Source: an alpha proteobacterium BAL199
GTDB taxonomy: Bacteria; Pseudomonadota; Alphaproteobacteria; Thalassobaculales; Thalassobaculaceae
Length of the DNA: 64,000 nucleotides
NCBI GenBank assembly: GCA_000171835.1
Contig: ABHC01000002.1
Coordinates: 62,001-126,000, forward strand
Reading direction: 5' to 3'
Part shown: positions 41,636 through 61,186 of the stretch, piece by piece
Layout of the letters: every line of letters begins with the position of its first letter
How positions within the stretch are numbered: position 1 is the stretch's first letter
The notes under the pieces: model-generated
The model's database searches: none
Told to the model about the DNA's origin: nothing
The model's input: the letters and a program-made list of their open reading frames with translations, nothing else
Program-made: the position numbers and the translations under genes

Positions 41636-42061
41636 TTAGGTCTCTTCAACCTGCTTCACGCCGCCGAGGCGGTAGTGCAGGAATGAGAAGCTGACGCCAA
41701 AGGTCAGGATCCCGACGACGGTCAACTGTCCTGCGGTTATCAGGTCATCGGTCGTCCGCAACTCGACCCACTCGGCCTCGACGAGATACCAGGAGGCAGC
41801 GGCGAACATGATGGTAATCAATCCCACGCCGCCCTTCTGGAGCGACCGCCGGGTGATGTCACCGATCGTGTAGAACCCGAACCCGAGCGCGCCAGCTATG
41901 GCGATCTGCAGCACATGCTCGCTCGGCGGCTGAAGCGCGTCGGACGTTACCCAGTGGTAGTAGGAATACCCACTGGCGTTGTAGGCGCTGAACACGATGA
42001 AGATGCAGAACAGCACACGCGCCAGCACGCCGCCTAGATCAAGGGTGTGAGTGTTTCCCAT
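41636..42061 (-). CDS. Four-helix inner-membrane protein (DUF6524-like)
   Basis: A 141-residue protein with about four hydrophobic helices: VLFCIFIVFSAYNASGYSYY at the start, then LQIAIAGALGFGFYTIGD, GLITIMFAAASWYLV and a final LTVVGILTFGVSFSFLHY. The pattern resembles DUF6524, which I recall only loosely, so the label is tentative. The ATG at 42061 has GGAGG-type sequence upstream; an in-frame GTG two codons earlier is less suited. It is convergent with the SDR gene. Confidence 0.72.
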   Translation of the reverse strand: MGNTHTLDLGGVLARVLFCIFIVFSAYNASGYSYYHWVTSDALQPPSEHVLQIAIAGALGFGFYTIGDITRRSLQKGGVGLITIMFAAASWYLVEAEWVELRTTDDLITAGQLTVVGILTFGVSFSFLHYRLGGVKQVEET

Positions 42062-42130
42062 GGCCACCCTCCGGCCTGTCCCGGACTCCCAATCGAGCCG
42101 GGATATCGGCCCGGCTACAGTCCAGCAAAC

Positions 42131-43168
42131 TTATCGCGTGGCGCTAGGGGCTGCAACGGCAGATGGTCCAGGACATCCAACAGCCGCCGTCATTGCCGCA
42201 CAAACGGTGACCGCAGCTTGCTCACGGGCAACCGAGGATGCCCGTGTGTGGGCGTCTTGAACAATCCGGCGCAACCCGGCCTCGAACGCGGGTCGGCTGA
42301 CGGCGCTGTCAATCCGGTTGACCGTGAAGTCGAGTCCCCAGATTCCCGCCGAGACCGCCGCTAGTGTCGCGATGGCGGTGCCAATTCCGGACACATTCGC
42401 GACCGGCGATGCAACAAGGCCGCCGACGACCGGTGCCAGAAGCAGGCGGGTGACCACGCTGATCGTGCGGGTGGCCAACGGCCGGAGCGATCGGACCAAT
42501 ACCTGATCCGTGGTGCCGCCGCCGTCCTCGTCGACGTTGAGCATGGCGCGCTGCAGCAGATTGGGCGGAGGAGGGGCGCTAAGCAGCGTCGCCGACAGAA
42601 GCGGGTTGCCATAGCGTTCCAGGGCCGGTTGCGGGTCTACGGCACGTTGCGCAGCCAACCGTTCGATGCGAGCACGTCGCGCTGCAGCCAGTTGAGAATC
42701 GAGCGCGACCAATCTGACCATCGTCCGCTGCCAGGCGTCGTCCAGCGATCGGGCGGTCTGCGTCGGCAGCACAACCGTGTCCTCGAAACGTTCAACCACA
42801 ACGAGAGCAAGTCGGTCGTGGACGGATTTTGGATCCGGCGTCCCGCGATCATAAATCTCGCGCGCGGCCTCGGTTGTACCGACATAGGCAAGGTCCCACG
42901 CGGTGAACAGGCTCGTCAGCCAACCGAACACCCAGTCAGAATAGGCGGTGACACGGCGATCCATGGCGTCAAAGGGCGGGGAGACCGCGCCATCGACCAG
43001 TCTCGGCGCGGCACGATGCAAGGTCGTTGCGTCATTGGCGACCCACGCCGCAGCTTGCGCTTCTAGGATGTTGGCGGCCGCCGGCATGGGTGCCAGAAGC
43101 ACCCAGGCAAGCAACAGCAGGAATGCCGGACACGATATCCCGGTCGGCTTGCGGAGCACCGCGATCAT
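42131..43168 (-). CDS. Secreted protein with C-terminal membrane hairpin, unknown
   Basis: A 345-residue protein. An N-terminal signal peptide (from MIAVLRKPTG, hydrophobic to MPAAA) precedes a periplasmic helical region rich in Arg and Ala (AAARRARIERLAAQRA). Two Gly/Ala/Val-rich helices lie near the C terminus (LLLAPVVGGLVASPVANVSGIG and TAIATLAAVSAGIWGL). The small-residue helix pair recalls the glycine-zipper proteins of the same region. The start is uncertain; an earlier ATG is possible. It is divergent from the 43375 gene. I recognise no family. Confidence 0.68.
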   Translation of the reverse strand: MIAVLRKPTGISCPAFLLLLAWVLLAPMPAAANILEAQAAAWVANDATTLHRAAPRLVDGAVSPPFDAMDRRVTAYSDWVFGWLTSLFTAWDLAYVGTTEAAREIYDRGTPDPKSVHDRLALVVVERFEDTVVLPTQTARSLDDAWQRTMVRLVALDSQLAAARRARIERLAAQRAVDPQPALERYGNPLLSATLLSAPPPPNLLQRAMLNVDEDGGGTTDQVLVRSLRPLATRTISVVTRLLLAPVVGGLVASPVANVSGIGTAIATLAAVSAGIWGLDFTVNRIDSAVSRPAFEAGLRRIVQDAHTRASSVAREQAAVTVCAAMTAAVGCPGPSAVAAPSATR

Positions 43169-43374
43169 CCAAGGTTCCCTTGCCAGTGTGCTCGAGCACA
43201 TCAGGCACCTGTACGGCCAGCCACCCTGGTAGGGCAAGATTATACCGCAACGCGAAGAAAGACGGTGGCGCGCCGATAACGTGAATGTCATCATAGCGCT
43301 GTAATTCCAGAATTGATGTAAGACGTCGGCGTCGGAGTTGACGTTGGAAACGGAATGACGTGAAGGAGAAGCAG

Positions 43375-43821
43375 ATGCGCGCCTGGCAGATCGCCGTTTT
43401 CATGTTCGGAGCTTTGATGCTGTCGGTTTCCGGCGTTCAGGCCCAGACGGCGGGAGCGACCACACCGCCTGCCGCCGCCGCCGCTCCGGCCCAGAAATCG
43501 GCGAGCGCCGCCCAGCAGGTGCTGACGCCAGAGCAGATCGAGGAGCTGCAGTCGATGGTGGGCCGCATGCAGTCGGCCATGCAGGACATGGTCAACTCGG
43601 CGCGCAGCACGGCGGGCCGGTTGGCGAGCGGCAGTCAGACCGTCGTCCTCAGCACCAACGAGATTGCGGCGATCGCAATTGGGGCTGCCGGCGGGGCCAT
43701 TCTGATCGATCTGCTTGGCGGTGGCGGCTTGGCGACAATCGCCGGTGCCGTCGTCGGCGGTGTTGCGGCGCATTGGTTCGTTACGGCCCCGCCAATGGGG
43801 CAGACGACGGGAACAAGCTGA
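43375..43821 (+). CDS. Secreted glycine-zipper membrane protein
   Basis: A 148-residue protein. A signal peptide ends near GVQAQ (residue 24). An Ala/Pro-rich and helical segment with possible coiled coil follows (EQIEELQSMVGRMQSAMQD). Then come two Gly-rich helices (IAAIAIGAAGGAILIDLL and ATIAGAVVGGVAAHWF) ending in aromatic residues. A GAAGGAG ribosome binding site precedes the ATG. It is the first plus-strand gene of the Mic60 locus, and it shares the signal-hairpin-aromatic layout with the 30254 and 30652 genes. Confidence 0.78.
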   Translation: MRAWQIAVFMFGALMLSVSGVQAQTAGATTPPAAAAAPAQKSASAAQQVLTPEQIEELQSMVGRMQSAMQDMVNSARSTAGRLASGSQTVVLSTNEIAAIAIGAAGGAILIDLLGGGGLATIAGAVVGGVAAHWFVTAPPMGQTTGTS

Positions 43822-43888
43822 TCTCCGTCGTCATCAGTCGGTGCTGTAGTCGGTGAAAGCCGGTTGCTTCATCGTTAATAGCTTGAAA

Positions 43889-43929
43889 CATCAGGCTCGA
43901 TGCGGTTTGTACGTGCATCAAGCCTGATG
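43889..43929 (+). other. Long near-perfect inverted repeat upstream of the 43961 gene
   Basis: CATCAGGCTCGATGC (43889-43903) pairs with GCATCAAGCCTGATG (43915-43929) in 14 of 15 positions around an 11-base loop. No T-run follows it, so a simple intrinsic terminator is unlikely. It lies between the 43375 and 43961 genes, about 30 bases before the second start. It could be an RNA structure controlling that gene or an operator. Confidence 0.6.
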
Positions 43930-43960
43930 GTGAGGCTGTGTAAGGACGGGCGACACTGAG

Positions 43961-44413
43961 ATGGACCACACGATGCCGCAGGGGACGGATGGCCGGCGCC
44001 GGTTTGCGGACACGGTCCGTATTGAGGCGATGAACGGCGGTTTCATCCGGGCAGATGAGGAGCGGCGTCTGCTGCAGGACGGCATGGCGCGCTACAATCT
44101 GTCATTGGAGGAAGCACGCGGAGTGCTGCTCTCGACGGTCAACGACCAGGGATTCTCACTGCAACGAGCGACCGAGGCAGAGATCAGAGACCTGATCCTG
44201 GTTCAGTCGGCACGGAACCGGGGCCGCCGATTGTCCAAAGCGGAATTCCAGCAAGCGGTCGAAATGTATCGGGCAAAGACCAAGGGACGGGTGACGGTCG
44301 ACGAAGCCCGGTTGCGCGTCAAGGCGATCATGGATGAGAACAACGTCCAGCCTAAAAGGGCTGGGTGGGTGATCCGGTCGCGCCGTTGGTACAATTCGAT
44401 CAAGGCCACCTGA
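43961..44413 (+). CDS. RRW-motif domain protein (paralogue of the 35322 gene N-terminus)
   Basis: A 150-residue helical protein. From residue 14 to the end it aligns with residues 4-135 of the 35322 gene product. Shared blocks are GGFIRADEERRLL, EEARGVLLS, FQQAVEMYRAK and IRSRRWYNSI, with equal spacing. It has no signal peptide, membrane helix or NTF2 tail. The charged, Arg-rich C terminus could bind nucleic acid, lipid or protein; nothing supports one over another. It is followed 49 bases later by the first Mic60-like gene, so it is probably in the same unit. The strong hairpin lies just upstream. Confidence 0.78.
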   Translation: MDHTMPQGTDGRRRFADTVRIEAMNGGFIRADEERRLLQDGMARYNLSLEEARGVLLSTVNDQGFSLQRATEAEIRDLILVQSARNRGRRLSKAEFQQAVEMYRAKTKGRVTVDEARLRVKAIMDENNVQPKRAGWVIRSRRWYNSIKAT

Positions 44414-44462
44414 TCTAGAATGGAGCGATCCGGCTTGTTGCCGGTGGAGGGGGATTGCGGGT

Positions 44463-45866
44463 ATGGCAAACCGACCGTTACCGAACGTGGATCCCGATGC
44501 GCTGTCGAAGCTCGCCAGCCAGTATCCGGGCAGCAACGACGGGCGCGCGGAGCCTAAGCTAGGTGGTAGCAGCGGCGGCGGTGGTGGGTCGACCGGCGGT
44601 GGCCCCGGCGACGGTGGTGGCGATCGTCCGTCAGCCAAAGCCGGCGCTGTGACCAAAGCGGAGACCTCTCCGAAGCCCGCAGCGAAAACCGGCGTGTTCT
44701 GGCCAGCGCTCTTTGCGGTTGTTGCGATCGTAGCGGCGTTCGCATCGTTGGCGGCGCCCAGCTTGCGGAGCGAGGCGCGGGCGCTTCTCCAACGTTACAT
44801 CCCGCAGTTGGAAGCCAAGACTGTTGACCTTATTACCGGTCATGACACACGGCGCCTGGAGGTTACCTACGACGGCCTAGACCAGCGGATCGCCAGTTTG
44901 ACCGAAGCGCTCGGGCGGATTGCGGCGGCGCCGGGGCTGGATCCTACGGCAGCGCGTGAGTTGTTGCTGAAGACCGAGCAGAACGAGCGCCTCGGTGCGG
45001 TGGAAGCGGCTGCTGCTGCTCAGAAAATCACGCTGGATGGGATCGCCGACCGCCTCAATGGGGTCGACAAGCAGATTGCGGGTCTTGACGAGGTCCGGCA
45101 GTCGATCGATGCGCTCGCGGGACGGGCGGCGTCGGCGGAGCAGGCGCTGGCTGCGTTGCAGGAATCCCTTGCTTCGGTTCAGGCCACCCTCGCGACGTTA
45201 GGCGCATCGGACGCTCAGACGGCTGCTTTGATCGAGGGAATGTCTGGCCGGTTTGACGCGCTGTCAGCCGAGATTGCCACGGCGCACGAACGGCTGGCTC
45301 CGGTCGCCGCACTGACGAACCGGGTTGCCGAGCAGCGCAAATCTATGGAACTCCCGCTGATCGGCATGACCCAGCTCCGCATCGCTCTCAATCGGGATAC
45401 GCCGTTCAAGATGGAGCTTGCACTGGCCAAGCAGCTTGTCGGTGACGATGCGGAATCGTTGGCGGCTCTTGCAGCGTTGGAATCTCAGGCAGGTACCGGA
45501 GTGGCAAGCCTGCGCAGCCTGCGCCGCGACTTCGCGTTCGCAGCGACCCAGATGGGCGGCACGTTGACTGTGATGCGCAGTTGGACTCAGCGCTTGAGCT
45601 CTTGGGTCGAGGTTCTGGTCGGTACCCGTTCGGTGCCCGAGGCAGATTCGATAGGACAGATGTCTGCTGCGATCGCGTCGATCGACGCGGTTCTTGAAGC
45701 TGGCCAGTTGGATCTGGCGATCAACGAGACGATCGCACTGAACAGTCGGCAGAGCGACGTGCTGCTCGATGGATGGATTGTGGAGGCCCGGCGTCGTCTC
45801 GCGACCGAGCGTGCGTTCGATCAGTTGTCTGCGCGGATCTACGCTCGGATCGGGACCTCCGGATAG
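44463..45866 (+). CDS. Mic60/mitofilin-like membrane protein (COG4223 type), copy 1
   Basis: A 467-residue protein. The order is a Gly/Ser-rich cytoplasmic head (residues 30-55), a single membrane helix (about 78-97, VFWPALFAVVAIVAAFASLA), a long helical/coiled-coil stretch (130-285), and a mitofilin-type C-terminal module. The last includes LRIALNRDTPFKMELALAK, LSSWVEVLVGTRSV and IVEARRRLATERAFDQLS. Alphaproteobacterial Mic60 proteins shape intracytoplasmic membrane; the usual copy is in a haem gene cluster, which is absent here. A second copy lies two genes on. The TAG stop is followed by an open, coding-like stretch in the same frame. Confidence 0.84.
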   Translation: MANRPLPNVDPDALSKLASQYPGSNDGRAEPKLGGSSGGGGGSTGGGPGDGGGDRPSAKAGAVTKAETSPKPAAKTGVFWPALFAVVAIVAAFASLAAPSLRSEARALLQRYIPQLEAKTVDLITGHDTRRLEVTYDGLDQRIASLTEALGRIAAAPGLDPTAARELLLKTEQNERLGAVEAAAAAQKITLDGIADRLNGVDKQIAGLDEVRQSIDALAGRAASAEQALAALQESLASVQATLATLGASDAQTAALIEGMSGRFDALSAEIATAHERLAPVAALTNRVAEQRKSMELPLIGMTQLRIALNRDTPFKMELALAKQLVGDDAESLAALAALESQAGTGVASLRSLRRDFAFAATQMGGTLTVMRSWTQRLSSWVEVLVGTRSVPEADSIGQMSAAIASIDAVLEAGQLDLAINETIALNSRQSDVLLDGWIVEARRRLATERAFDQLSARIYARIGTSG

Positions 45867-45941
45867 GACTCCCTCCAGCTTGGTGGTCCGGTCGTTACGG
45901 CCGCCGAGGCGGTTGCGGAACTCACGATCGAGGACGTCGTG

Positions 45942-46562
45942 GTGGACGGTGAGTTCGAGAGACTGCTCGACTGGGTCGGCGTACTGGCATTGAAGGCGAT
46001 CTCCGGGGGCTTTCTTATCGCGATGCCCGTCGTGGCACTCGCCCTGCTCGGGTGGCTCCACCGCCTCCCGAACCTTCGCGGGTATTGGCACGTGCCAATC
46101 GTGACAAGACCGGCGGTTGTTGCCGGCGCGCTGCTCGGGTGGGCGGTGCTCTATGCCAATCCGCACAGCCCAAGCTTTCGTATATCGGCGATTTTCGAGG
46201 TTGGGGGCGTTTGGGATCTGCCGTGGACGTTTTTCCTGCAGTATCGGGCGGATCCCGCGCTGTACGGCTACGATGCTCTATTGCCCGTTATTCAGAGCCC
46301 GGACATCGCTCCGATCCTGGCACTGGTGATGTTGGGCATCACCATCCTCTTGGGAATCTCGATCATTGCGGCATTGGTGTATCTTAAGGGAATCGATCTG
46401 GCGGCCGGCCTCGTCGGGATTGTGTTTCTCTGCCTGTTCTCCCAGGTGGTGACCGTCTATGCGATTACATTGGTCGCCTATACCTTTAACACTCTGAATT
46501 TTTGGGCGGCTGCGGTAGCGCTTGTTATACTGCAGTATTATCGCAAGGCGGCCGCTCATTGA
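45942..46562 (+). CDS. Polytopic membrane protein between the two Mic60-like genes
   Basis: A 206-residue protein with five to six hydrophobic helices (for example GGFLIAMPVVALALLGWL, LALVMLGITILLGISIIAAL and VGIVFLCLFSQVVTVYAITL) and few charges between them. A GAGGA sequence sits seven bases before GTG 45942 and four before GTG 45939. The reading frame is the same as the preceding Mic60-like gene; only the TAG at 45864 separates them. I do not recognise the family. Its position between two mitofilin-like genes suggests a membrane partner. Confidence 0.75.
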   Translation: MDGEFERLLDWVGVLALKAISGGFLIAMPVVALALLGWLHRLPNLRGYWHVPIVTRPAVVAGALLGWAVLYANPHSPSFRISAIFEVGGVWDLPWTFFLQYRADPALYGYDALLPVIQSPDIAPILALVMLGITILLGISIIAALVYLKGIDLAAGLVGIVFLCLFSQVVTVYAITLVAYTFNTLNFWAAAVALVILQYYRKAAAH

Positions 46563-46668
46563 GTGCGTTTGATTGGAATATGCTCCACGTGCGTCTTGAC
46601 TCGATCCGCCGGTGCCCCATGATCGAGCGACGCCCTTCTTGAACCAGCCACGATTGATCGGAGGCAAA

Positions 46669-47646
46669 ATGGCCGACGAAACCAAGCGACCCGCGCGTTC
46701 ACCGTCGACCCGAGCCGCGCCGAAAGCGCGGGCTCCGTCGAGCAAGGCAGCCGAGGCTCCCGTGGCATCTGAAGCGAAAATTGAAGTGACCGAGACCGCA
46801 CCGAAGGCCGAGGCGGCTCCGGCTCCTGTTGTCCATTCGTCTCCGGCTCCTGATCGGATGGCTGGCGCCGGAAACGGTGGGGTGGCCATGGCGGGTCTGT
46901 TCGCCGGTGTGATCGGCATCGTTCTGGCGCTCACTTATCCGCAATGGACGCCGATCGTGTACGGATCCACCGGGTCCAGTAACCGGGTCACGGCGGATCA
47001 GGTGCGCTCCGAATTGAAGGGCGAAGTTGCCGCTTTGAAGGCAACCGTCTCGGCGATGACTGAGCAGCAGGTCGCATTGGAGCAGGCAATCCGTACCGCC
47101 AAGCTTCCCGGCATCCTGATGGTCGCGGAGGATCTGCGTGCGGCGTTGGCCGGTTCCGAGCCTTATGCCGGACCGCTCAACCTGTTCCGGGCGCTGACAG
47201 GGGGGGATGAGGCCGCCGGACGGATCATCGCGTCCATCGAAGCGCGGGCCGAGGTTGGTGTGCCGAGTGTTGATGACCTGCAGGATCGTTTTGACGATGC
47301 CGCCCACGCAATCCTGACCGCGGAACAGCGGCCGCAGGCGCAGAGCGATCTGGCGTCACAGGTATCGGAGACCATGGCGAGTTTGACGGCCGCGACGATG
47401 CGGCTGCGCTGGCGGCTTGACGGTGCTCCCACCGGAGATGGTGTCTCGGCCGTGGTGGCACGCGCCGAGCAATCGGTTGGCAAGGGAGAGTTCCAGACGG
47501 CGATTGATACGCTCAGCGTTCTGCCGGCCGATCGTGCCGCGCTGGCGGCTTCCTGGATTGAACTCGTCCGAGCCCGGCTTACCGCGGAGGCTGTTCGCGA
47601 GGAACTGGACTCCTACATCATCGTCACGGCGTCGCGCATCCAGTAG
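46669..47646 (+). CDS. Mic60/mitofilin-like membrane protein, copy 2
   Basis: A 325-residue protein with a Pro/Ala/Lys-rich cytoplasmic head (1-65), one membrane helix (about 72-90, GVAMAGLFAGVIGIVLALTY), a shorter coiled segment, and the mitofilin signature at the C terminus (AVVARAEQSVGKGEFQTAID followed by WIELVRARLTAEAVREEL). Compared with copy 1 it has the same layout but lacks most of the long coiled coil. GGAGG lies four bases before the ATG at 46669; an earlier in-frame ATG is less likely. It ends 12 bases from the convergent ParA-like gene. Confidence 0.84.
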   Translation: MADETKRPARSPSTRAAPKARAPSSKAAEAPVASEAKIEVTETAPKAEAAPAPVVHSSPAPDRMAGAGNGGVAMAGLFAGVIGIVLALTYPQWTPIVYGSTGSSNRVTADQVRSELKGEVAALKATVSAMTEQQVALEQAIRTAKLPGILMVAEDLRAALAGSEPYAGPLNLFRALTGGDEAAGRIIASIEARAEVGVPSVDDLQDRFDDAAHAILTAEQRPQAQSDLASQVSETMASLTAATMRLRWRLDGAPTGDGVSAVVARAEQSVGKGEFQTAIDTLSVLPADRAALAASWIELVRARLTAEAVREELDSYIIVTASRIQ

Positions 47647-47658
47647 CGGGTTCGTTGA

Positions 47659-48303
47659 TCAGGTTTTCAAAAGCGCTGGCTCAAGCTCACGCGCGAGCCG
47701 GCGTATTTCCATTGAGGCGGTGGCTTTGGGGGCCAACTCCTGCGGCGATGATCCGTGATACGACGCCTCCTGGAACACCGCACGATCACCGATCCGAGCG
47801 TCGACCGGGTTGAGGCCGAGTGCCTCTAGCTGTCGTTCCGTATGCCGCACGACGGTTGCCCGTTTTACCCGATTCAGAACGGTGCGGAAGGCAATCTCCC
47901 GGCGGGTCAAAGCGCTGGCACTTTGAATGACTTTTTTCATTTTGCTGGCTTCGAACAAGCTGGCTTCGTCCGCCATTACCGGTATGAGGACGAGATCGGC
48001 GATCCCGACGGCGTAGATCATTGATTGGTTTCCGAAACCCGCAGTATCGACGATGACGATGTCGGCGCGCTCGCTCAGATCCTGGACGGCTCCGATGATT
48101 GCGTGCTCATCAGAGGTCGCTTGCGCCTCGACATTGTCGTAACTGGAGCCTTTGCGAAACCAGCGCGTGGCGGCCTGGTTCGGATCGGTGTCGAGCATCG
48201 CGACGCGCTTGCCGTCGCTGCGCCAGTACGCCGCAAGCGACGCGGCAATGGTTGTTTTGCCGGTTCCGCCTTTGCTGGTGGCGACGACGAGGACGCTGGC
48301 CAT
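47659..48303 (-). CDS. ParA/MinD-type ATPase, orphan
   Basis: A 214-residue ParA-superfamily ATPase. The deviant Walker A loop is KGGTGKTT (residues 11-18), with the signature Lys, followed by MLDTDPNQAATRW (Walker A-prime) and DIVIVDTAGFGNQSM (Walker B). There is no ParB or parS nearby, so plasmid-type partitioning is unlikely. Such solo ATPases position large complexes or organelles on the nucleoid or membrane. Start ATG 48303 opens the domain cleanly. It is the only minus-strand gene between the plus-strand genes of this locus, facing Mic60 copy 2. Confidence 0.9.
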   Translation of the reverse strand: MASVLVVATSKGGTGKTTIAASLAAYWRSDGKRVAMLDTDPNQAATRWFRKGSSYDNVEAQATSDEHAIIGAVQDLSERADIVIVDTAGFGNQSMIYAVGIADLVLIPVMADEASLFEASKMKKVIQSASALTRREIAFRTVLNRVKRATVVRHTERQLEALGLNPVDARIGDRAVFQEASYHGSSPQELAPKATASMEIRRLARELEPALLKT

Positions 48304-48452
48304 TTTGTGTGTCGCTCCGTTGATCCACCCTCTACTCATAATGGCCGATCGGCCTTTCAACGCAAAGCCCGCGTTGCGTGGCGGCCGGGAATGAGGTTTC
48401 CTACGCCGTCGGGCCGGATTGGCTCCGGGGATCGGAAGCGGAAGAGTTCACA

Positions 48453-49010
48453 ATGAAAGGAGTCCTGGTCGCGGTGATTCTGGTTGCAGCGACGGTTTCG
48501 GGCGGCGCGGTGCCGGTACGGGCGGGCGCTCTGGGTGACGCCGTTGTGTCGGTCGGTGGCTGGCTGAGCGAGCTGGAATCCGCGCTTTCTGCTTGGGTCG
48601 ACAAGGCCGTTGGCCGGATCACCGGATCGCAGGACGATACCCGGTCGGCGGATGCATTCCGTCGCCTGGCGATTGAAGCACCGGAGCAACTTGATGTTCT
48701 GGCCGCCAGGGTGGGCTACGCGCTGGCGAGCTATGCGGTTGCGCCGGCCGATCGGCAGGACCTGACCCTGAACTTTCGCCATGACCGCGACCTTGCGCCG
48801 GACGAGCGCGTGGCGCTGCTACGCGAGTTGAATGACCGGGCGTCGATCGATGCCAGGCCCGAGCTCGCGCTTGTTCGCATTCTCCTCGACGCAGCCGACT
48901 GGCGTGACGCTGGCCCAAGTGAACGGTTTCGTTTGACGGGCGTCGAGGTACAGGTTGACGACTCCGTGTCGTCCCGGCTGATCTTCTCCGAATCGGTGGT
49001 GGTGCGATAA
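48453..49010 (+). CDS. Secreted protein, unknown
   Basis: A 185-residue protein with a signal peptide (MKGVLVAVILVAATVSGGAV, ending near VRAG). The mature part is helical first (SELESALSAWVDKAVGRI) and then mixed, with a C-terminal beta-like segment (RLTGVEVQVDDSV). No family is recognised. It ends in TAATG, so its stop overlaps the next gene's start by one base, indicating coupling to the dioxygenase. Confidence 0.74.
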   Translation: MKGVLVAVILVAATVSGGAVPVRAGALGDAVVSVGGWLSELESALSAWVDKAVGRITGSQDDTRSADAFRRLAIEAPEQLDVLAARVGYALASYAVAPADRQDLTLNFRHDRDLAPDERVALLRELNDRASIDARPELALVRILLDAADWRDAGPSERFRLTGVEVQVDDSVSSRLIFSESVVVR

Positions 49011-49924
49011 TGCTGACGGCTGAACCGCTTTCCAGAGTACTCGGCGCCGAGATCAAGGGACTCGATCTGTCGTCTCCGATCGCGGATGCGGATCGTGAGG
49101 AACTTCTCACGTTGTTCTGGCAGCACAAGGTAATCGTCATACGTGGCCAGGATGTGGCGCCCGATGGGTTCATTCGGTTTGCCGAAGCGTTCGGAACGAT
49201 CGAGCCGTTTTTCATCAGCGCCTACAATCTGCCGACGCACCCGCAGATCTATGTGCTGTCGAACGTGCGGCAAGACGGCAAGCCGATCGGTCGAGACGGT
49301 GCCGGCACGCACTGGCACAGCGACAGCACGTTCACCGAGAAGCCCAGCAGCGCAACCTTGCTGCACGGGGTGACCGTGCCAGACCGCGGTGGTGACACCC
49401 TGTTCGTCAACACTGCGGACGCCTACGACCGGTTGGACGACGAAACGAAGGCTCGCATTCAGGGTCGGCGTGCCATCCACCGCTACCAGCGCAAGGAGTT
49501 CGTGTACTCCGGTGACCGTACGATCGACGATGCCGAACGCACGGAAATCGAACGCGTGAAGGCGTTGCGCATGGCGGAAGCCGCCGCGGACGCGGCGTCA
49601 CCGACCGCGCAACGCAGCAATCAGGAGCCCGATCGCCTGCACCCGATCGTGCGAACCCATCCGGTTACCGGTTCGAAGGGCCTCTACCTGAACGACGAGA
49701 TGACAGTTGGTATTGAGGGAATCCCGGACGAGGAGGCGGTGCCGTTGCTGCGTCGTCTCTGCGAAGTTGCCACCGCGCCGGATACGGTGCTGCGCTATAA
49801 GTGGCGGCAAGGCGATGTGGTGGTCTGGGACAATGCCGCGGTAATCCATAGCGCCACGTTTACTCCGCCGGATCTCCCGCGGGTCATGCACCGGTTGACG
49901 ATTGCGGGCACCGTCCCATTTTGA
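49010..49924 (+). CDS. TauD/TfdA family 2-oxoglutarate-dependent dioxygenase
   Basis: A 304-residue iron(II)/2-oxoglutarate oxygenase. The facial triad begins HWHSDSTF (His103, Asp105); the distal His is in AVIHSATFTPP, and the 2-oxoglutarate-binding Arg is in MHRLTI. The family includes taurine and 2,4-D dioxygenases and carnitine-pathway enzymes. Substrate is not clear. Its coupling to a secreted protein and position inside the Mic60 locus are unusual for a catabolic oxygenase. Confidence 0.92.
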   Translation: MLTAEPLSRVLGAEIKGLDLSSPIADADREELLTLFWQHKVIVIRGQDVAPDGFIRFAEAFGTIEPFFISAYNLPTHPQIYVLSNVRQDGKPIGRDGAGTHWHSDSTFTEKPSSATLLHGVTVPDRGGDTLFVNTADAYDRLDDETKARIQGRRAIHRYQRKEFVYSGDRTIDDAERTEIERVKALRMAEAAADAASPTAQRSNQEPDRLHPIVRTHPVTGSKGLYLNDEMTVGIEGIPDEEAVPLLRRLCEVATAPDTVLRYKWRQGDVVVWDNAAVIHSATFTPPDLPRVMHRLTIAGTVPF

Positions 49925-49935
49925 GGAGGTTGGCG

Positions 49936-51153
49936 ATGCTGGCTCCAGTATCGTGTTCGAGACTTCCGCAACTGTTTATGGCTTTGGGCTTGGTGGTTAT
50001 GTGCGTTGCCGGGGGAACCGTCCCAACGGCGGCGCAAGCCCGACCGGTGCTCGACTGGCTGCAATACGATTCAACTGCGCTGAACGAGTATGCCGTCAAC
50101 CAAGACACCGGCGACAGCGCACGCCATAGCATTGACCCGGCATGGGCACCGGAAGCCCAACAACGCTCGGCCAAGCTGGTGATGCTGTTGATCCCGAAGC
50201 GTTCGGAGATCGCGTACTCAACGTCCGTAAACACCATCCTGCAGGTGTTTCGCCAGCACGGCGTGCCGACGCGCTTCTCGGTCTGGTTCTACGACGAGGA
50301 CGACGCCGTCGCGCGTGAGGCGTTGGACTGGGCGTACGCCCAACCGGTTGACCTGATCATGTCGGTCGGATCGGTCGCTACCGCCTACCTGCACAAGCAT
50401 CATCGTGGGCATCGGATACCGGCGGTGACCAGCGCTTCCAAAGACCCGGTTGCGTCCGGACAGGTCGCGAACGCCCAGACCGGAAGCGGTACCAACATCG
50501 CCTACACGTCAATCAATGTGGCGACCGATACACTGGTCGCTTACTTGCGTCGGTTGGTTCCGGGCCTGACGACGATCGGTGTCATGTACTCGAGGGACAA
50601 TACCAGCGCGTTGCGCACCCAGGTCCAACCGCTCCACGATGCAGCGAATGTTCTGGGCCTGACGGTCATCGATATTTCGGTAGAGGATGAGGCTGCGGCG
50701 GCGGCGGAGTTGGACTCTGCAATGCCGTCCGGGTTGGACGCCATGCGTCGCAGCGACGCCGATCTGCAACGCAGCGTCTTGCTGGTCACCGGTTCGACGC
50801 CGGTATACGAGCGAATCGACCAGGTGAATCGTCACGCAGGCCGGGTGCCGGTTGTCTCGATGCTGCCGGATGTCGTGCGACCCGGATTGGATTCAGCGTT
50901 GCTGTCGATCGGTGTCAACCTGTCCAGCGCGGTGGCCTTGGCTGCGGTCTACGCCAAAGATGTGCTGCTGGGCGAAGCGAACCCGGCAACCCTACCGGTC
51001 GGCATGGTCGCACCGCCGGACCTTGCGATCAATTTCCAGGTCGCCGAGCGGATTGGAATCGCCATTCCGTTCTCGTTCTTCGAGTCCGCTACCTTCGTCT
51101 ACGATCCCACCGGACGGGCCGTTATCGAATTTGGGCAACGGGTTGGCGGGTAG
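49936..51153 (+). CDS. Periplasmic ABC-type substrate-binding protein (ABC_sub_bind family)
   Basis: A 405-residue protein with a signal peptide (from MLAPVSCSRL to about TAAQA). It has a two-lobed binding fold, with IGVMYSRDNTSAL at the domain junction and SIGVNLSSAVALAA near the end. The family is the one often linked to tryptophan-like or unknown ligands. No ABC permease or ATPase lies beside it. I set the start at ATG 49936, since GAGGAGG precedes it; an earlier TTG reading would swallow that sequence. Genes of this type without a transporter often act as sensors for a partner. Confidence 0.84.
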   Translation: MLAPVSCSRLPQLFMALGLVVMCVAGGTVPTAAQARPVLDWLQYDSTALNEYAVNQDTGDSARHSIDPAWAPEAQQRSAKLVMLLIPKRSEIAYSTSVNTILQVFRQHGVPTRFSVWFYDEDDAVAREALDWAYAQPVDLIMSVGSVATAYLHKHHRGHRIPAVTSASKDPVASGQVANAQTGSGTNIAYTSINVATDTLVAYLRRLVPGLTTIGVMYSRDNTSALRTQVQPLHDAANVLGLTVIDISVEDEAAAAAELDSAMPSGLDAMRRSDADLQRSVLLVTGSTPVYERIDQVNRHAGRVPVVSMLPDVVRPGLDSALLSIGVNLSSAVALAAVYAKDVLLGEANPATLPVGMVAPPDLAINFQVAERIGIAIPFSFFESATFVYDPTGRAVIEFGQRVGG

Positions 51154-51277
51154 ATCGCAGGATTTGCGTTTCATCCGCTTAAATTCAGCGACCCGATGGG
51201 GTAGTCTCACGCGTTGATGGGTCATGGTCACCGGACCGCTGCAGGCGGGCGACCGGGTGGGACGGGGGAGAGCGAAT

Positions 51278-52378
51278 ATGTTTGACGGGTTTCTGTCGCT
51301 GCCGGTGTTGGCTGTGGGGGCGTTCTTCGCGGTCTCATACTTTGTGAATCCTGCGACGATTATCATCGAGGACATCTCCGTTCCCCACCATCTTTCGGAC
51401 TTGGGAGTGACCCACGAGGTCGCCGCCGGGATGCTCACCGAGAAGATGGCGGAGATCGCCGACGCGGCCGGGAGCAGCCGCGGCACGTTGACCACAGAGT
51501 TGACGGCTCAAGGCCGCTCGGTCGAGGCATTGAGCGACTGGTTCGGTCTGGCCAGCCCGATACGTTCGACGCAGGTCGCCTTGGGGTTTCTGCCGTACAC
51601 CTTCGAGGGAGAGATTATCGAGAAGGGTGACGACCTGTTGCTGGCAATCAAAGGCAAGTCGCCGAAGTATTGGCATTTCTCGATCGAGGAGCACGGCCCC
51701 GCGGATGACGTCGAGGGTCTGATCAAGAAGGTCGCGTTGCGCCTGATGCAGGAGATCGATCCGTATCTGGTCGCGGTCTACCATTTCCGCGAGGAGTCGG
51801 CGAAGCGTGACTTTACGCTCACCAAGCAGGCGATCGACTTCGCACTCGTCCATGCGGACCGCCGGCAACTGCCATGGACCTACGCCTTGCTCGGTGATGC
51901 GCTTCGCCGTGAAGGGAGTTACGAACAGGCGATCATCAAGTTCCGCCAGGCAATGATCCTGGATCCGAAGTTTCCGCGGCCGATGATGCGCTGGGGTAAC
52001 GCGCTGGCCGATCAGGGTCGGTATGACGAGGCGATCGGGCGCTACAAGAAGACCCTGGAGATCGAACCGATGTATCCCGAGGCTTTGGTTGCCTGGGGCG
52101 AAGCGTTGACGGCGCTCGGCCAGCATGACGAAGCTCGCCGCAAGTACGAGCAGGCGGTGGCGATGGATCCGCATTTCCCGCGAATTCTGTTCGCCTACGG
52201 CAAGTACCTGGCCGCGAACGGCGACAAGGCAGGAGGTGCCGAGTACCTCCGCCAAGCTCTGCATCTCGAGGGTGGCCACAACCAAGCCTACGTGGAGACA
52301 CTTCGCAAGGTGCAACGCGAGGTCGATCCGGCTCTAGAGGAAGCAGTTCCGTTGGCCAAGGGCATGCGTTCCCGGTGA
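51278..52378 (+). CDS. Membrane-anchored TPR protein
   Basis: A 366-residue protein with an N-terminal hydrophobic helix (LPVLAVGAFFAVSYF) and probably a large periplasmic part. Several tetratricopeptide repeats lie in the C-terminal half, clearest in YEQAIIKFRQAMILDP, YDEAIGRYKKTLEIEP and HDEARRKYEQAVAMDP. GGGGGAG precedes the ATG at 51278. Between the helix and repeats is an unknown domain of about 150 residues. It follows the binding-protein gene by 124 bases and precedes the sensor-MFS gene. Confidence 0.85.
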   Translation: MFDGFLSLPVLAVGAFFAVSYFVNPATIIIEDISVPHHLSDLGVTHEVAAGMLTEKMAEIADAAGSSRGTLTTELTAQGRSVEALSDWFGLASPIRSTQVALGFLPYTFEGEIIEKGDDLLLAIKGKSPKYWHFSIEEHGPADDVEGLIKKVALRLMQEIDPYLVAVYHFREESAKRDFTLTKQAIDFALVHADRRQLPWTYALLGDALRREGSYEQAIIKFRQAMILDPKFPRPMMRWGNALADQGRYDEAIGRYKKTLEIEPMYPEALVAWGEALTALGQHDEARRKYEQAVAMDPHFPRILFAYGKYLAANGDKAGGAEYLRQALHLEGGHNQAYVETLRKVQREVDPALEEAVPLAKGMRSR

Positions 52379-52393
52379 TGACGGGCGGATGTA

Positions 52394-52413
52394 CCTGGAG
52401 CGAACGCTCCAGG
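52394..52413 (+). other. Short perfect palindrome before the sensor-MFS gene
   Basis: CCTGGAGCG and CGCTCCAGG are nine-base perfect arms with two bases between. They sit 16 bases after the TPR stop and 62 before the sensor-MFS start. No T-run follows. It could be an operator, a processing hairpin or a weak terminator. Confidence 0.45.
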
Positions 52414-52475
52414 GATGATCCGGAGTTGCGTCCACCGGAGTGGGTGCCGGTACATTCGGGCGAAGCGGAAGTGAC

Positions 52476-54887
52476 ATGAAGGCGATTGCACGCGTGTTGC
52501 CGAGTGCTGCCCTGGCGGCCCTCAGCTTGTTGCTGTTCGCCTATGTCGGCTACGGCGAAGCCACCCGGGTCTACGTGCAGATCCGCCTCGAACGCCTGGA
52601 GCAGCTGGGCGCGACGCTACAAACCGTTGTCGACCAGTTTGCCAAGTCGGGGCTGTCGCTCGACCAGTTCGGCGGATTCGATCGGCGCGGCACCCAGCTT
52701 CGTGAGGTCGACCCGGCGATTCTGGCGACGGCCATTGTCGACGTGAACGGCAAGCCGATAGCCTGCGAAGCGGAGGCCACGGCCAAAGACCGGCTTTGCC
52801 ATCAAGAGGCGCTCAGCGAGCAGATCCATGATGGCACCGCAAGCTCACCGTTCGGGCGGTTTGCGACCGATGTTCGGTTAGAACTGCCGGTACGCGACAA
52901 GTTTGGCACGGTCGGTGCTGTGGTCGTCCACGTGGATCGAGACCGCATCGAGGCGGTTGTCGACGCTGCGTTTAGACCGGTCGTGATGCTATCGGCAGGT
53001 CTGTTCGTCCTGTTTACGCTGATACAATTGGTTCTGGCTTGGCGAAGCGAGGACACGCGCCAGCGCTGGTTGACCCGTCTCTTCATGGGAGTGGTCGCGA
53101 TCAATCTGGTGGTGCTGGTCGCCGTCATGTTCGATCTGTACCGCAAGGGCACCGAGGGTCAGGCCGAAGCGTTGGCCCGGTCGATGGCGATGCGGTTGTC
53201 CGCCGCCACCGAACTTGGGATTCCGCTGTCGGCGTTCTCGGGCATCGCCGAGGCGCTGGAGGAGTATCGCCGCATCAATCCGAACATCGCGGCAATCTCC
53301 CTGGTGCGGGAGGGTCAGGTTCTCTACAGCGTGGACAATGCACCTGGGGCCGGCGCGCTGTCGGCGATCGACCTGCGGCGACTGACCTTCGAACTGCCGA
53401 TCCACAACGGTTCCGGCCAGGATCTCGTGCTGTCGGTCGAACTGCCGCTGTCGGTGGTCCTTGCTGCCCTTGGGGCTGGCGCACGAAATTTCATCGCCCT
53501 GTTCTTTGGATGCGCGGTTTTTGCGCTGGTGTTCCTGCGGGCGGTCCGAGAGGGGCCAGGCGCTGGTTCCATCAGCCCGGTGGGAAGCGACATGACGGAC
53601 AGTCGTCTGGCCTTGCTCCGGCCGGCGTATTTCCTCGGCATTTTTGCCGATGCCCTGTCGCTGTCGTTGCTGCCAGAGATCGCGCACGAAACAGTGGTTG
53701 CCGAGGGATTGCCGGCAGGATGGGTGTCGCTACCGTTCACGTTGTTCTTCGTCGGACTGACGGCGGCGCTTCTGCCTGCGTCCTACGTAACCGGGCGAAT
53801 GGAGCTTCGCAGACTGTTCATGATCGGGGCCGTAGCGGTCGGCGGCGGACTGTTCCTGGTATCGCTGGTGCCGGAGTTCTGGGCCTTGTGTGTCGGACGA
53901 GCACTCGGCGGTGCCGGGCAGGGCACGCTCCTGGTAGCCGTTCAGGCCTACGCGTTCGAAGTGGTGGGTCCAACCCAGCGTACGCGAGCCGCCGCGGTCC
54001 AAGTTCTCGGTTACAACGGCGGGCTGATCGTCGGGACCGGTCTTGGTGGGTTGCTGGCGGTGTTCAATCCGGACCGCGACGTGCTGTTCGCCGGAGGAAT
54101 CGTTGCGGTGGCCGCCGCGGTTTATATCCGGTTTGTCCTGCCCCCACTGCTCCGCCGCGACGAGGATTCGATCGGGCTGTTGAGCGGCGTTGGGCGATTG
54201 GCGCGAGCCCCCGACTTCATGGCTGTTCTCGGTTTCGTTGGGATCACGTCGAAATTTGCGCTGGCCGGAATTGCCATGTTTGCCGTGCCGTTGGTTCTGC
54301 ACGGCAGCGGGTACGACGACGACGAGGTCGGGCAGGGTATGATGGTGTTCGCCGTGGTCACCTATCTGGTGACCGGTGGAGCCCCGAGGCTGGTGGCGCG
54401 CCTACGATCGATCGACGGTGTGTTGACGATCGGAATGCTGATGCTTGGGCTGGGAACGGTTCTGCTGGGGCTTCTGGTGGTACCCGGGATCAATGCGACT
54501 GCGCCGACCTCCATCCCGGCCTGGGCGTCGGATGCCGCCGCTGCTGTTCAGTCGGCCGTCGCATCGAGCTCCATTCCGGCGGCCGCTGGGATAGCGATTG
54601 CGTTGTCGATTGCGGCGCTGGGTGTGGGGCAGGGGCTTATCGCGGCACCGGTGATTGCGCGTGTGGCTGACAGTCATGCAGCGCACAGCGTAGGGCGCGA
54701 TCGGACCCTGGCGATCTATCGGCTGGCCGAGCGGTTTGGCCATATCCTGGGACCGACCCTGGTCGGACCGTTGTTGCTGGCGGCCCACGGCAATGCGTCG
54801 GCGTTGATCGTTTTCGGAGCGGTGTTCGCTGGTTTAGGCATTTTGTACGCGGGCAGCACGATGGTCATGCGCGCTCCGCCGCACTGA
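52476..54887 (+). CDS. MFS transporter with duplicated periplasmic sensor module
   Basis: An 803-residue protein. Residues 7-27, 168-190, 200-222 and about 331-358 are membrane helices enclosing two periplasmic domains of 110-140 residues. The two domains appear to be a tandem duplication: SGLSLDQFGGFDRRG and LGIPLSAFSGIAEAL begin equivalent blocks, followed by ILATAIVDVNGKPIA and NIAAISLVREGQVLY. From about 378 a 12-helix major facilitator domain follows (for example VGRALGGAGQGTLLVAVQAY). Periplasmic sensors of this PDC/CHASE-like kind normally sit on kinases or chemoreceptors, not transporters. A preceding palindrome and the TPR gene suggest one unit with the binding protein. Confidence 0.85.
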   Translation: MKAIARVLPSAALAALSLLLFAYVGYGEATRVYVQIRLERLEQLGATLQTVVDQFAKSGLSLDQFGGFDRRGTQLREVDPAILATAIVDVNGKPIACEAEATAKDRLCHQEALSEQIHDGTASSPFGRFATDVRLELPVRDKFGTVGAVVVHVDRDRIEAVVDAAFRPVVMLSAGLFVLFTLIQLVLAWRSEDTRQRWLTRLFMGVVAINLVVLVAVMFDLYRKGTEGQAEALARSMAMRLSAATELGIPLSAFSGIAEALEEYRRINPNIAAISLVREGQVLYSVDNAPGAGALSAIDLRRLTFELPIHNGSGQDLVLSVELPLSVVLAALGAGARNFIALFFGCAVFALVFLRAVREGPGAGSISPVGSDMTDSRLALLRPAYFLGIFADALSLSLLPEIAHETVVAEGLPAGWVSLPFTLFFVGLTAALLPASYVTGRMELRRLFMIGAVAVGGGLFLVSLVPEFWALCVGRALGGAGQGTLLVAVQAYAFEVVGPTQRTRAAAVQVLGYNGGLIVGTGLGGLLAVFNPDRDVLFAGGIVAVAAAVYIRFVLPPLLRRDEDSIGLLSGVGRLARAPDFMAVLGFVGITSKFALAGIAMFAVPLVLHGSGYDDDEVGQGMMVFAVVTYLVTGGAPRLVARLRSIDGVLTIGMLMLGLGTVLLGLLVVPGINATAPTSIPAWASDAAAAVQSAVASSSIPAAAGIAIALSIAALGVGQGLIAAPVIARVADSHAAHSVGRDRTLAIYRLAERFGHILGPTLVGPLLLAAHGNASALIVFGAVFAGLGILYAGSTMVMRAPPH

Positions 54888-56063: not shown

Positions 56064-56855
56064 CTATTGCGCAACCACAAGGAACACACTGGGACTGATC
56101 GCGGTCTCGCCGACGAACGGGTAGGCGAGATGCAGCACGACAATCAAATGCATGACCAGGAAGCTTATCAGAATTGCCGACATCAGGCCCTGAATAGCGA
56201 CATTGGCCGACCCCAGGAACCAGGGGAACACGATCGCCAGGGCCGTGCCCATGCCGAGCAGCACCCAGACCAGGGAGACCAGACTGCGCGATACAGTGGT
56301 CAGCCTAAAGCTGCGACTCTCATTGACCTGCCGAACCCATTCCACGGTGTTTTGCTGAAGGGCCTGCTGGGCGTTGGTGATCGGCTCGATCTTCAGGAAA
56401 ACATCAGACAGTTGTCGGAATCGGTGCGTCACTTCGAAGCTCGGAATCCCGACGCTCATCGTCCGCCATTCCTTCTCGACGACGGCCCGTGCGTACTCCC
56501 GCACGGCGGATGTCATGCGAACCCGGTCGTCGGACTGGCTGGGTAGGTCGTAGACCTCTGCGGCGCGATCCAGCATTACCAACGCGGCCACTTCCTTCTG
56601 CACTGTGGTCTGGGCGTCGGTGTAGCGGTCGAAAGCTCCGATCAGGGCGAGCGCCAGGGTGACGGCGTAGACCTCGCCCAGAAAGCCGAACTTGATGCCG
56701 CCGATTGCGTTGTTCGGCTCCAACTGGAAGGGCGTATAGATCGTGTTGACGATCCAGGTGCCCAGCACCGAGATCAGCACCGCGATGCCGATCAGCAGCG
56801 GGACTGCGATGTCGAGCGGGATCCGGGCAAGAAGGACGGCGAGTTCGTAGGTCAT
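56064..56855 (-). CDS. DUF4239-like (bestrophin-like) membrane protein
   Basis: A 263-residue membrane protein with four hydrophobic helices, two at each end: VPLLIGIAVLISVLGTWIV and a second near 55-72, then LVWVLLGMGTALAIVFPWFL and LMSAILISFLVMHLIVVLHL. A helical soluble segment with conserved-looking charged residues lies between. The layout fits DUF4239. It follows the His-rich protein gene by 36 bases, so it may be a late gene of the RND operon. Confidence 0.78.
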   Translation of the reverse strand: MTYELAVLLARIPLDIAVPLLIGIAVLISVLGTWIVNTIYTPFQLEPNNAIGGIKFGFLGEVYAVTLALALIGAFDRYTDAQTTVQKEVAALVMLDRAAEVYDLPSQSDDRVRMTSAVREYARAVVEKEWRTMSVGIPSFEVTHRFRQLSDVFLKIEPITNAQQALQQNTVEWVRQVNESRSFRLTTVSRSLVSLVWVLLGMGTALAIVFPWFLGSANVAIQGLMSAILISFLVMHLIVVLHLAYPFVGETAISPSVFLVVAQ

Positions 56856-56891: not shown

Positions 56892-57323
56892 TCATTTCGG
56901 GTGAACGTCGGCCTTGCCGGTGTGGGTCTTGCCGGAGACCACGAGACGCAGCACCATGTCGAGGTCAGCCCCCGGCGCCGTTGCGAAGCCCAAAGTACCT
57001 TCCAGACGATCGTCGACGACCGATAGAGACACCTTCTTGCTCGCTCCGGAGACGACGAAGATCGCGTCGCCCTTGCTAACCTTCTTGCTGATGTCCCTGC
57101 CGTGCTCTTCGTAAACGTAGGCAACGATCTTGCCGTCGGCGATAACGACCTCGACGTCGTACGAGCCGACTTCGGCGATGGTGCCGCCGTGTTTCGCGAC
57201 AGCCTCATGATCATGTTTGTGTTCGTGCTTCTGATCTGATGCAGCAAACGCAACGGTCGCCATGCTGAGTGGCATGGATATGACGGCCAGAAAGGCGGCG
57301 GTGCGAACGAACGTCGTGATCAT
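56892..57323 (-). CDS. Secreted His-rich protein of the efflux operon
   Basis: A 143-residue periplasmic protein. The signal peptide ends near TVAFAA (about residue 27). A metal-binding stretch HEHKHDHEAVAKHGG follows, then a beta-rich domain (VGSYDVEVVIADGKIVAYVY). It resembles small periplasmic metal-binding proteins accompanying Cus/Czc systems. It lies between the RND permease and the DUF4239 gene in the same direction. Confidence 0.82.
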   Translation of the reverse strand: MITTFVRTAAFLAVISMPLSMATVAFAASDQKHEHKHDHEAVAKHGGTIAEVGSYDVEVVIADGKIVAYVYEEHGRDISKKVSKGDAIFVVSGASKKVSLSVVDDRLEGTLGFATAPGADLDMVLRLVVSGKTHTGKADVHPK

Positions 57324-60517: not shown

Positions 60518-61186
60518 TCAGACCAGACCAGTGGCCGCGATCATGGTGACGATGCCAACACCGGTGACCCCCAAGCCGATCCACCGGCGGCGACCGGTTC
60601 CGCGCAGGCCGGTCACCGCTCCGAACAGCGCGATTAGTCCGGCGGCGGCCGGCAGAACGAACGGCCGTGCGCCGTTCCAGAGCGCGACCTGCGCGCCGGT
60701 CGACTTGCCGGCGGTCGGGCCGTGATCGTGGCCTTCGTGGCCTCCCTCAACCGCGCCCGACATGTGGGCAAGCAGAACTTCCTCCCGATCGCCGGACACT
60801 ACTGTGGCGATCAGTTCGACGGTTTCTGCGTCCTCAACCGACAGACCCTCGGGCGGCCAGGGGGACACAACGTACAATCCCGGGGCGGTTTCCTCGGCGG
60901 TTACCAGCGCGTCTCCGGCGAAGATCTCAATACGCGCGTCCTTGGCTGGGGCGTTGGTCTCGGTGTTGTCGAGAAAGATCACCAACTGGCCGGCCTTCGG
61001 CAGCGCGACGAGCTGGAAATTTGCGCCGACTGCAAATGCTCGGGCCGGAATGTCCGCCATACCCGCAGGCTTCTCGGCCTCGCCGTGATTGTGCCCCTCG
61101 TGTTGGGCGAAGGCGTTGGGTGCCGACGACAAGGCAAAGCCTAGGACAAGCACCAATACCGAGATGAAGGATCTGCCACTCATCAC
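60518..61186 (-). CDS. His-rich periplasmic protein with C-terminal membrane hairpin
   Basis: A 222-residue protein with a signal peptide (ending near NAFAQ) and two His-rich segments, HEGHNHGEAE just after the cleavage site and EGGHEGHDHG before the membrane part. A beta-rich domain lies between them, and two helices end the chain. It overlaps the adaptor gene by four bases (ATGA), a coupled arrangement. Likely a metal-binding accessory factor for the RND pump. Confidence 0.85.
   Translation of the reverse strand: MMSGRSFISVLVLVLGFALSSAPNAFAQHEGHNHGEAEKPAGMADIPARAFAVGANFQLVALPKAGQLVIFLDNTETNAPAKDARIEIFAGDALVTAEETAPGLYVVSPWPPEGLSVEDAETVELIATVVSGDREEVLLAHMSGAVEGGHEGHDHGPTAGKSTGAQVALWNGARPFVLPAAAGLIALFGAVTGLRGTGRRRWIGLGVTGVGIVTMIAATGLV

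Follow-up and report, generated by a model that had tools for sequence, protein, structure and literature searches.

The DNA analysed here, a window of 64,000 nucleotides from the alpha proteobacterium BAL199 (Thalassobaculaceae; assembly GCA_000171835.1, contig ABHC01000002.1, positions 62,001 to 126,000 of the forward strand), carries an island between about 32 and 63 kb that encodes two diverged Mic60-type proteins, A and B, together with an Mla-type ABC ATPase-permease fusion (MlaFE). This set of genes is found again in other families of the class, for example in Azospirillum. The explanation favoured here, tentatively and at somewhat less than an even chance, is that of an accessory envelope island in which a lipid-transport machine would be tethered by A and B. 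Mic60 is the core subunit of MICOS (mitochondrial contact site and cristae organizing system), shapes the inner membranes of mitochondria and has a bacterial ancestor; in plants, it also has a role in lipid traffic. To our knowledge, little is known about the partners of bacterial Mic60. A conserved locus pairing diverged Mic60 proteins with an Mla-type transporter represents a testable set of such partners, which would link contact-site scaffolds to lipid transport independently of mitochondria. The island as a whole suggests an undescribed apparatus tying both bacterial membranes together; a search of the open literature found no description of it, and one may be in print outside open papers.

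The island was followed by means of R, a helical protein of 150 amino acids (43961-44413, plus strand) that was studied in alignments and modelled with AlphaFold2 (pLDDT 90.2), and that has no match in Pfam or NCBIfam. In a class-wide draw, R was found in 10 of 385 alphaproteobacterial genomes (one of them, G013, with a weak match), and it is present in 23 of 82 Azospirillaceae genomes, in all four genomes of family f145 and in one of the four of f135. Beyond the Alphaproteobacteria, only the window's own genome matched among 349 drawn Pseudomonadota genomes. In Azospirillum sp. B510, R is carried on plasmid pAB510b.

The loci compared comprise 36 contig entries (contig-loci) from 35 genomes besides the window's own, with G005 counted twice, one of its contigs lacking R. 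They cover 19 of the 23 R-bearing Azospirillaceae genomes and three of the four of f145, the weak G013 match being left out. All counts refer to genes within 25 kb of R and to score thresholds set by the analyst, and the loci of close relatives are not independent. Counted in this way, R is present at 35 of the 36 contig-loci, the polytopic membrane protein M at 32, a DUF6524 membrane protein at 29, and mitofilin-like and TPR genes at 25 each. The mitofilin-like genes, which are distributed over five families, appear in at least two copies at 22 contig-loci. MCE-like, MlaFE, RND and adaptor genes follow with 16 each and MlaA with 14, and then the genes for g42131 (13), g32 (11), a bestrophin-like protein (9), a ParA-type ATPase (8) and the glycine-rich protein Gz (8). 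DUF6524 alone was rejected as a marker of the island. Fourteen genomes of the class-wide draw exceed its cut-off and lack R, and the 12 loci read as a control contained no mitofilin, R or M in 207 kb, in stretches of 11.6-19.9 kb that are shorter than most R loci; two of them gave weak TPR matches.

Protein A (44463-45866, plus strand; 467 amino acids) has a low-complexity N terminus, one predicted transmembrane helix, a long helical region and a cryptic mitofilin domain. Protein B (46669-47646, plus strand; 325 amino acids, in an open reading frame (ORF) open from 46612) consists of one predicted transmembrane helix, a short linker and a mitofilin domain. Between both genes, in the ORF list of the window, lies that of M (45939-46562, plus strand), for which 14 homologues were aligned and which occurs in six taxonomic families. 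The arrangement given in a preliminary description of this DNA, two such proteins flanking a polytopic membrane protein, is correct. That description had also called both flanking proteins mitofilin-like. With Pfam this holds for B, which scores 40.5 bits from 46612 and 40.7 bits from 46669 against Mitofilin (PF09731; cut-off 27.4), but fails for A, which has no match to that model at E<=1. Profiles built from canonical sequences, however, recover both. When 19 canonical Mic60 C-terminal domains were used as a profile against the ORFs of the window at E<=10, B (6e-26) and A (4.1e-20) were the only matches. Moreover, hhalign aligned the A orthologues (nine rows) with canonical Mic60 (16 rows) at 99.6% and E 1.5e-23, the B orthologues (nine rows) with the same set at 99.5% and E 4.4e-22, and A with B at 97.5% and E 5.1e-12, while two unrelated island proteins used as controls reached 0.1% and 3.3%. 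Addition of a tenth row to A, from G350 (itself over the Pfam mitofilin cut-off), gave an E of 5.7e-25, and the conclusion is the same without it. The alignment of the C-terminal domains also displays a pattern common to A, B and the distant copies. As judged from domain homology and predicted transmembrane helices, A and B are Mic60-type proteins, and the bacterial mitofilin family is wider than the gene of the haem cluster.

The transmembrane helix was located by a hydropathy scan of the window proteins in the N-terminal part of both A and B. Between this helix and the mitofilin domain, A exhibits weak SMC-type matches in NCBIfam; B and M have no match in that collection. Pfam is an unsafe test for the mitofilin proteins of the island, because its cut-off is reached by B orthologues in four of nine genomes (G000, which is BAL199 itself, G002, G006 and G030), and because seven further A orthologues yielded a single mitofilin match at E<=0.01 (T. 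fulvum, 19.1 bits), below the cut-off. In scans of genome contigs, A alone found no relative and the R alignment found seven loci; B found one weak Shinella match among plasmids.

Mitofilin matches occur at two places in the BAL199 genome, the island and contig C34. In the latter, the gene is located between HEM4 (hemD) and HemY_N (hemY) genes, as identified with Pfam. The preliminary description had pointed out the absence of haem genes at the locus, which is borne out, and had suggested looking for a canonical haem-cluster mic60 elsewhere in the genome. A and B have other neighbours, and the C34 gene is the canonical copy. As this haem-cluster mic60 sits elsewhere, between hemD and hemY, A and B are considered a second type of Mic60. 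The Pfam Mitofilin model matched in 15 of 19 genomes. A match away from the island was found in G000, G001, G002, G005, G006, G026, G030, G034, G350, G086 and G383 (under the cut-off in the last of these), G216 has a match in the island only, and G004, G071, G102 and G307 have no Pfam mitofilin match anywhere. The small genomes G013 and G021 hold one mitofilin match each, but nothing in them matches A at E<=0.001.

In a mitofilin tree of 187 columns, A forms a branch of its own (support 99/95), as does B (100/100). With a support of 89/87, which is below the tool's mark, A is joined to the eight distant island copies and to one copy from outside an R locus (the second copy of G086); B takes no firm place in the tree, where long branches meet. 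G086 encodes, at C1:302223, a further mitofilin-like protein apart from both its haem-cluster copy and R. Separately, some canonical Mic60 proteins (L157, L047 and L042) start with a short conserved stretch that can be read as resembling a DNA-binding helix-turn-helix.

Canonical alphaproteobacterial Mic60 (hemD-mic60-hemY) resembles the island proteins in its mitofilin domain and in the single transmembrane helix of the N-terminal part. In contrast, the island holds two diverged paralogues, each on its own branch and in a different neighbourhood, and the canonical copy is kept elsewhere. Mic34 and Mic40 of Euglenozoa are soluble eukaryotic proteins that replace Mic60, whereas A and B have a transmembrane helix and the canonical Mic60 remains. 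In an unlikely alternative, that of a compartment builder as proposed in the preliminary description, the paired Mic60 proteins would bend or pinch the inner membrane into an intracytoplasmic compartment, for which MlaFE would supply lipid and which ParA would place. Alphaproteobacterial Mic60 deforms membranes in vitro, and bacteria from which it has been deleted grow less well under conditions that call for intracytoplasmic membrane (excerpt of PMC12136173); the pair of cryptic mitofilin proteins known from Euglenozoa causes membrane remodelling upon expression in bacteria (excerpt of PMC12631773). Within the family, a ParA gene and the glycine-rich hairpin protein Gz accompany the pair, the latter lying close beside it. 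Nevertheless, neither of them is constant across the contig-loci, and no published ultrastructure of these species was found in a search of the open literature. In addition, MICOS combines Mic60 with Mic10, and Gz, the one candidate tested, has no match to the Mic10 family in Pfam at E<=1, so it was rejected as a Mic10 homologue.

MlaFE (33706-35292, plus strand) holds an ABC ATPase and an MlaE permease in a single protein (Pfam ABC_tran 86.6 bits and MlaE 54.8 bits, both over the cut-off), a fusion that is also present in G071 and in Azospirillum B510. The adjoining gene (32603-33709, plus strand) encodes a possible divergent MCE protein, with a transmembrane helix, a small beta domain and a long helical part in a moderately confident AlphaFold2 model (pLDDT 73.7, pTM 0.49). 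The label MCE-like was given before the fold was compared. In VIA-align, 14 of the 50 listed rows for this model were MCE proteins (LetB/YebT, Mce1 and MlaD), with Z of 4.9-5.9; alignments with the LetB/YebT rows and a single MlaD chain span 70-78 residues at 2.8-3.4 Angstrom, and those with the Mce1 and remaining MlaD rows span 109-113 residues at about 6 Angstrom. The Pfam MlaD model has no match at this gene and matches two other places in the genome. The position of the gene next to that of an MlaE permease strengthens the MCE reading.

The Mla-type genes and the mitofilin-like genes tend to be found together. At least two mitofilin-like genes accompany the MCE-like/MlaFE pair at 15 of 16 loci, the exception being G071, which lies at a contig end, and at least one is present at 10 of the 20 loci that lack the pair; as many of these loci belong to close relatives, no probability is given for this co-occurrence. 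In eight Azospirillum loci (G742, G748, G749, G750, G759, G760, G761 and G763), the gene immediately after MlaFE, in the same orientation, is mitofilin-like, and in five of these eight it is directly followed by MlaA. The other mitofilin-like gene adjoins the RND adaptor gene in seven of the eight. The record of B510 annotates one of its two mitofilin-like genes as 'mitofilin family membrane protein', and MlaA is annotated or matched by Pfam at the loci of B510, G086 and G350. The island resembles Mla (MlaFEDB-MlaA) and other MCE systems (the former summarized in PMC10214851) in having an MlaE-type permease with an ABC ATPase, an adjoining and possibly MCE-like partner and, in relatives, MlaA. 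It differs from them in the fusion of ATPase and permease, in the long helical part of the partner and in the additional mitofilin-like, R, M and DUF6524 genes.

Since the island encodes the MlaF-MlaE fusion, its MCE-like partner and an RND pump with an adaptor, and relatives add MlaA, lipid or other envelope transport is suggested first, perhaps at a contact between the inner and outer membranes. In the mechanism proposed, MlaFE would hydrolyse ATP in the inner membrane, as its ATPase and permease domains suggest, and together with its putative MCE partner would move lipid between this membrane and the periplasm, the direction being conjectural. A and B would be anchored in the inner membrane by their single helix, with the helical region and the mitofilin domain presumably reaching into the periplasm, and would hold the transporter, M, the DUF6524 protein and the RND/adaptor pump where both membranes meet. 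MlaA would form the outer-membrane end in relatives, and in the Thalassobaculum lineage the ParA ATPase may position the assembly in the cell. According to these proposed roles of MlaFE, its partner, A and B, the system would be like an Mla/MCE lipid-transport system provided with a MICOS-like tether. Bacterial Mic60 has indeed been reported to serve double-membrane contact sites (excerpt of PMC12631773). The preliminary description had ascribed to the locus the building or positioning of a membrane compartment or contact site, and the contact site remains the better half of that proposal. A stricter version, a MICOS-like contact-site machine in which two dedicated Mic60 paralogues bridge the inner and outer membranes around an MCE lipid conduit, is rather doubtful. 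If true, bacteria would have a purpose-made counterpart of the connection that has been proposed to exist in mitochondria between lipid traffic and Mic60.

Several observations weigh against tethered lipid transport. Mitofilin-like genes are missing at 11 of the 36 contig-loci. Three of these (G071, G307 and G102) are short contigs or stretches of 4-12 kb, and the other eight, all from Azospirillaceae (G086, G731, G744, G770, G772, G777, G783 and G784, with 24.5-60 kb read), lack the mitofilin, MCE-like and MlaFE genes together. Conversely, at the three f145 loci and in G006, G751 and G806, mitofilin genes are present but the MCE-like/MlaFE pair is absent from the stretch read. The MCE assignment is itself weak: the Z of its VIA-align rows does not exceed 5.9, unrelated helical rows score equally, the tool warns that values below 8 are common, and Foldseek returned no match for the model at E<=0.001. 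An MlaA profile detected no MlaA at the Thalassobaculaceae loci. Furthermore, the functions of all the parts are deduced from domains and neighbourhood. What the analysis shows are domains, predicted transmembrane helices, synteny and recurrence; topology, membrane contact, lipid cargo and positioning by ParA are extrapolated.

Lipid transport also leaves unexplained an RND permease of a heavy-metal family and two His-rich proteins. The permease (57353-60466, minus strand) belongs to the CusA/CzcA family, with 752.3 bits against NCBIfam TIGR00914 (cut-off 701.45), and its HlyD-type periplasmic adaptor (61183-62952, minus strand) matches Pfam HlyD_3 (37.1 bits) and HlyD_D23 (34.8 bits). Between them is encoded H605 (60518-61186, minus strand), a protein with a signal-like N terminus and a His-rich stretch that is found at the identical 16 contig-loci as the pump and its adaptor. 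A small protein with the same two features (56892-57323, minus strand) was recognized from its sequence and synteny. The pump is thus similar to CusA/CzcA systems in its permease, which is over the family cut-off, and in its adaptor, and differs in being embedded among Mla-type and Mic60-type genes; no outer-membrane factor was identified for it in the island. These genes could be read as a metal-handling envelope system, in which the RND pump, the adaptor and the His-rich periplasmic proteins would export metal ions, with the remaining genes, among them those of the Mic60 and Mla types, serving to adapt or protect the surrounding envelope. The ZnuA and ABC-3 genes found with Pfam between adaptor and RND in G350 fit with this, as does a transporter of the CDF family at the island edge (29336-30223), whose nearest family is the zinc transporter ZitB (316.5 bits, cut-off 408). 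However, the CDF gene appears again only in G001, and the RND of G350 remains under the heavy-metal cut-off (652.9 against 701.45 bits). The pump and its adaptor are also less frequent than M, DUF6524 or mitofilin, and no copy was seen at any of the three f145 loci or in five of the eight other Thalassobaculaceae genomes read (G001, G002, G004, G005 and G026, three of them short stretches). Metal export as the purpose of the whole island is given a low probability.

Least probable of all would be that the island is not a single machine but a mobile envelope-stress island, whose genes for transport, sensing and scaffolding are unrelated and are carried along with each other for their joint usefulness. 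Such mobility agrees with the patchy distribution of R in Azospirillaceae and in the class-wide draw, with its plasmid location in B510, and with a gene order that is reshuffled between families and, as described below, partly mobile within one. On the other hand, several taxonomic families share the uncommon protein families R, M, DUF6524, paired mitofilin, MCE-like and MlaFE in differing arrangements, and mitofilin genes accompany the MCE-like/MlaFE pair at all but one of its loci.

Within the Thalassobaculaceae, A and B are both matched at E <1e-30 in nine of 36 genomes, including BAL199; in G005 the matches lie on two contigs. As far as their contigs extend, the eight other genomes share the order DUF6524, g42131, Gz, R, A, M, B, ParA, S. 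Hence, both a mitofilin match and a conserved neighbourhood, the two observations on which the preliminary description had beforehand staked its case, were made. The limits it had assigned to the locus (43375-54887) were too narrow, since the conserved neighbours span from about 30.6-32.2 kb to 63-64 kb of the window. A second block, formed by the TauD, ABC-substrate, TPR and MFS genes, follows S in the genus of the window, and in G026, G030 and G034 it occupies the opposite end.

The neighbours listed in the preliminary description (a glycine-rich secreted protein, the RRW-motif protein R, a ParA-type ATPase, a secreted protein, a TPR protein and a protein with an N-terminal domain fused to an MFS transporter) are all in place. 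The first of them, Gz (43375-43821, plus strand; nine orthologues aligned), has a signal-like N terminus and a glycine-rich hydrophobic hairpin, and among the contig-loci compared is restricted to Thalassobaculaceae. The ATPase, of the ParA/MinD type (47659-48303, minus strand; NCBIfam ParA_partition 135.7 bits, below the cut-off of 180), is present in the window as claimed but is not a constant part of the locus, being found in two families. The secreted protein S (48453-49010, plus strand) has a signal-like N terminus by hydropathy and is kept in synteny. Next to it lies the movable block, which starts with a TauD-family dioxygenase (49010-49924, plus strand; Pfam TauD 215.6 bits) and continues with an ABC substrate-binding-like protein (49921-51153, plus strand; Pfam PF04392 54.7 bits; 8 of 36 contig-loci), the TPR protein (51224-52378, plus strand; Pfam TPR, three families), with one N-terminal hydrophobic stretch by hydropathy, and a large N-terminal domain fused to an MFS transporter (52440-54887, plus strand; Pfam MFS_1 75.1 bits at residues 396-708). 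In single comparisons, the B510 counterparts of the last of these and of the ABC substrate-binding-like protein gave E of 6e-4 and 0.052, respectively, and they are not counted as shared with B510 because the similarity is distant at best.

Upstream of this core, the DUF6524 membrane protein (41636-42067, minus strand) matches Pfam PF20134 with 95.3 bits (cut-off 27), and g42131 (42131-43201, minus strand), with two hydrophobic stretches and an uncertain start, occurs in four families and has no Pfam match. A domain of the R type fused to a SnoaL-like domain forms R2 (35322-36188, plus strand; Pfam SnoaL_2 40 bits and a match to the R profile), which gives the island a second copy of R in several genomes of the Thalassobaculaceae. 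The gene for g32 (32199-32597, plus strand), a small protein of five families without transmembrane helices or Pfam match, is situated upstream of that for the MCE-like protein. Another small protein, Gz2 (30652-30984, minus strand; 6 of 36 contig-loci, two families), has a signal-like N terminus and a second, glycine-rich hydrophobic stretch, and likewise no Pfam match. On the other side, a bestrophin-like membrane protein (56064-56855, minus strand) is recognized by Pfam PF14023 with 143 bits, and the edge of the island is occupied by a P-loop nucleotide-binding-type protein (63166-63984, plus strand), which is syntenic in G001, G026, G030 and G034 and has AAA matches only under the cut-off.

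Two further interpretations were discarded. The confident AlphaFold2 model of R was compared with known folds, and no PDB row stands out. A defence system was considered too, and PADLOC gave weak matches (<=20 bits) for three of ten proteins and none for the other seven.

Some minor observations were made along the island. In the metagenome-assembled genome G002, changes of reading frame, probably owing to assembly errors, interrupt the genes for M, B, ParA, TauD and MlaFE. Two small minus-strand ORFs (31547-31825 and 31777-32040) have profile matches at the same place in G002, G030 and G034, one of them does in G026, and neither does in G001. Finally, an Azospirillum island (L188, 28485-31875) includes a CheW gene and a chemoreceptor gene, and chemoreceptor-like matches appear at 9 of the 36 contig-loci, all of them in Azospirillaceae.

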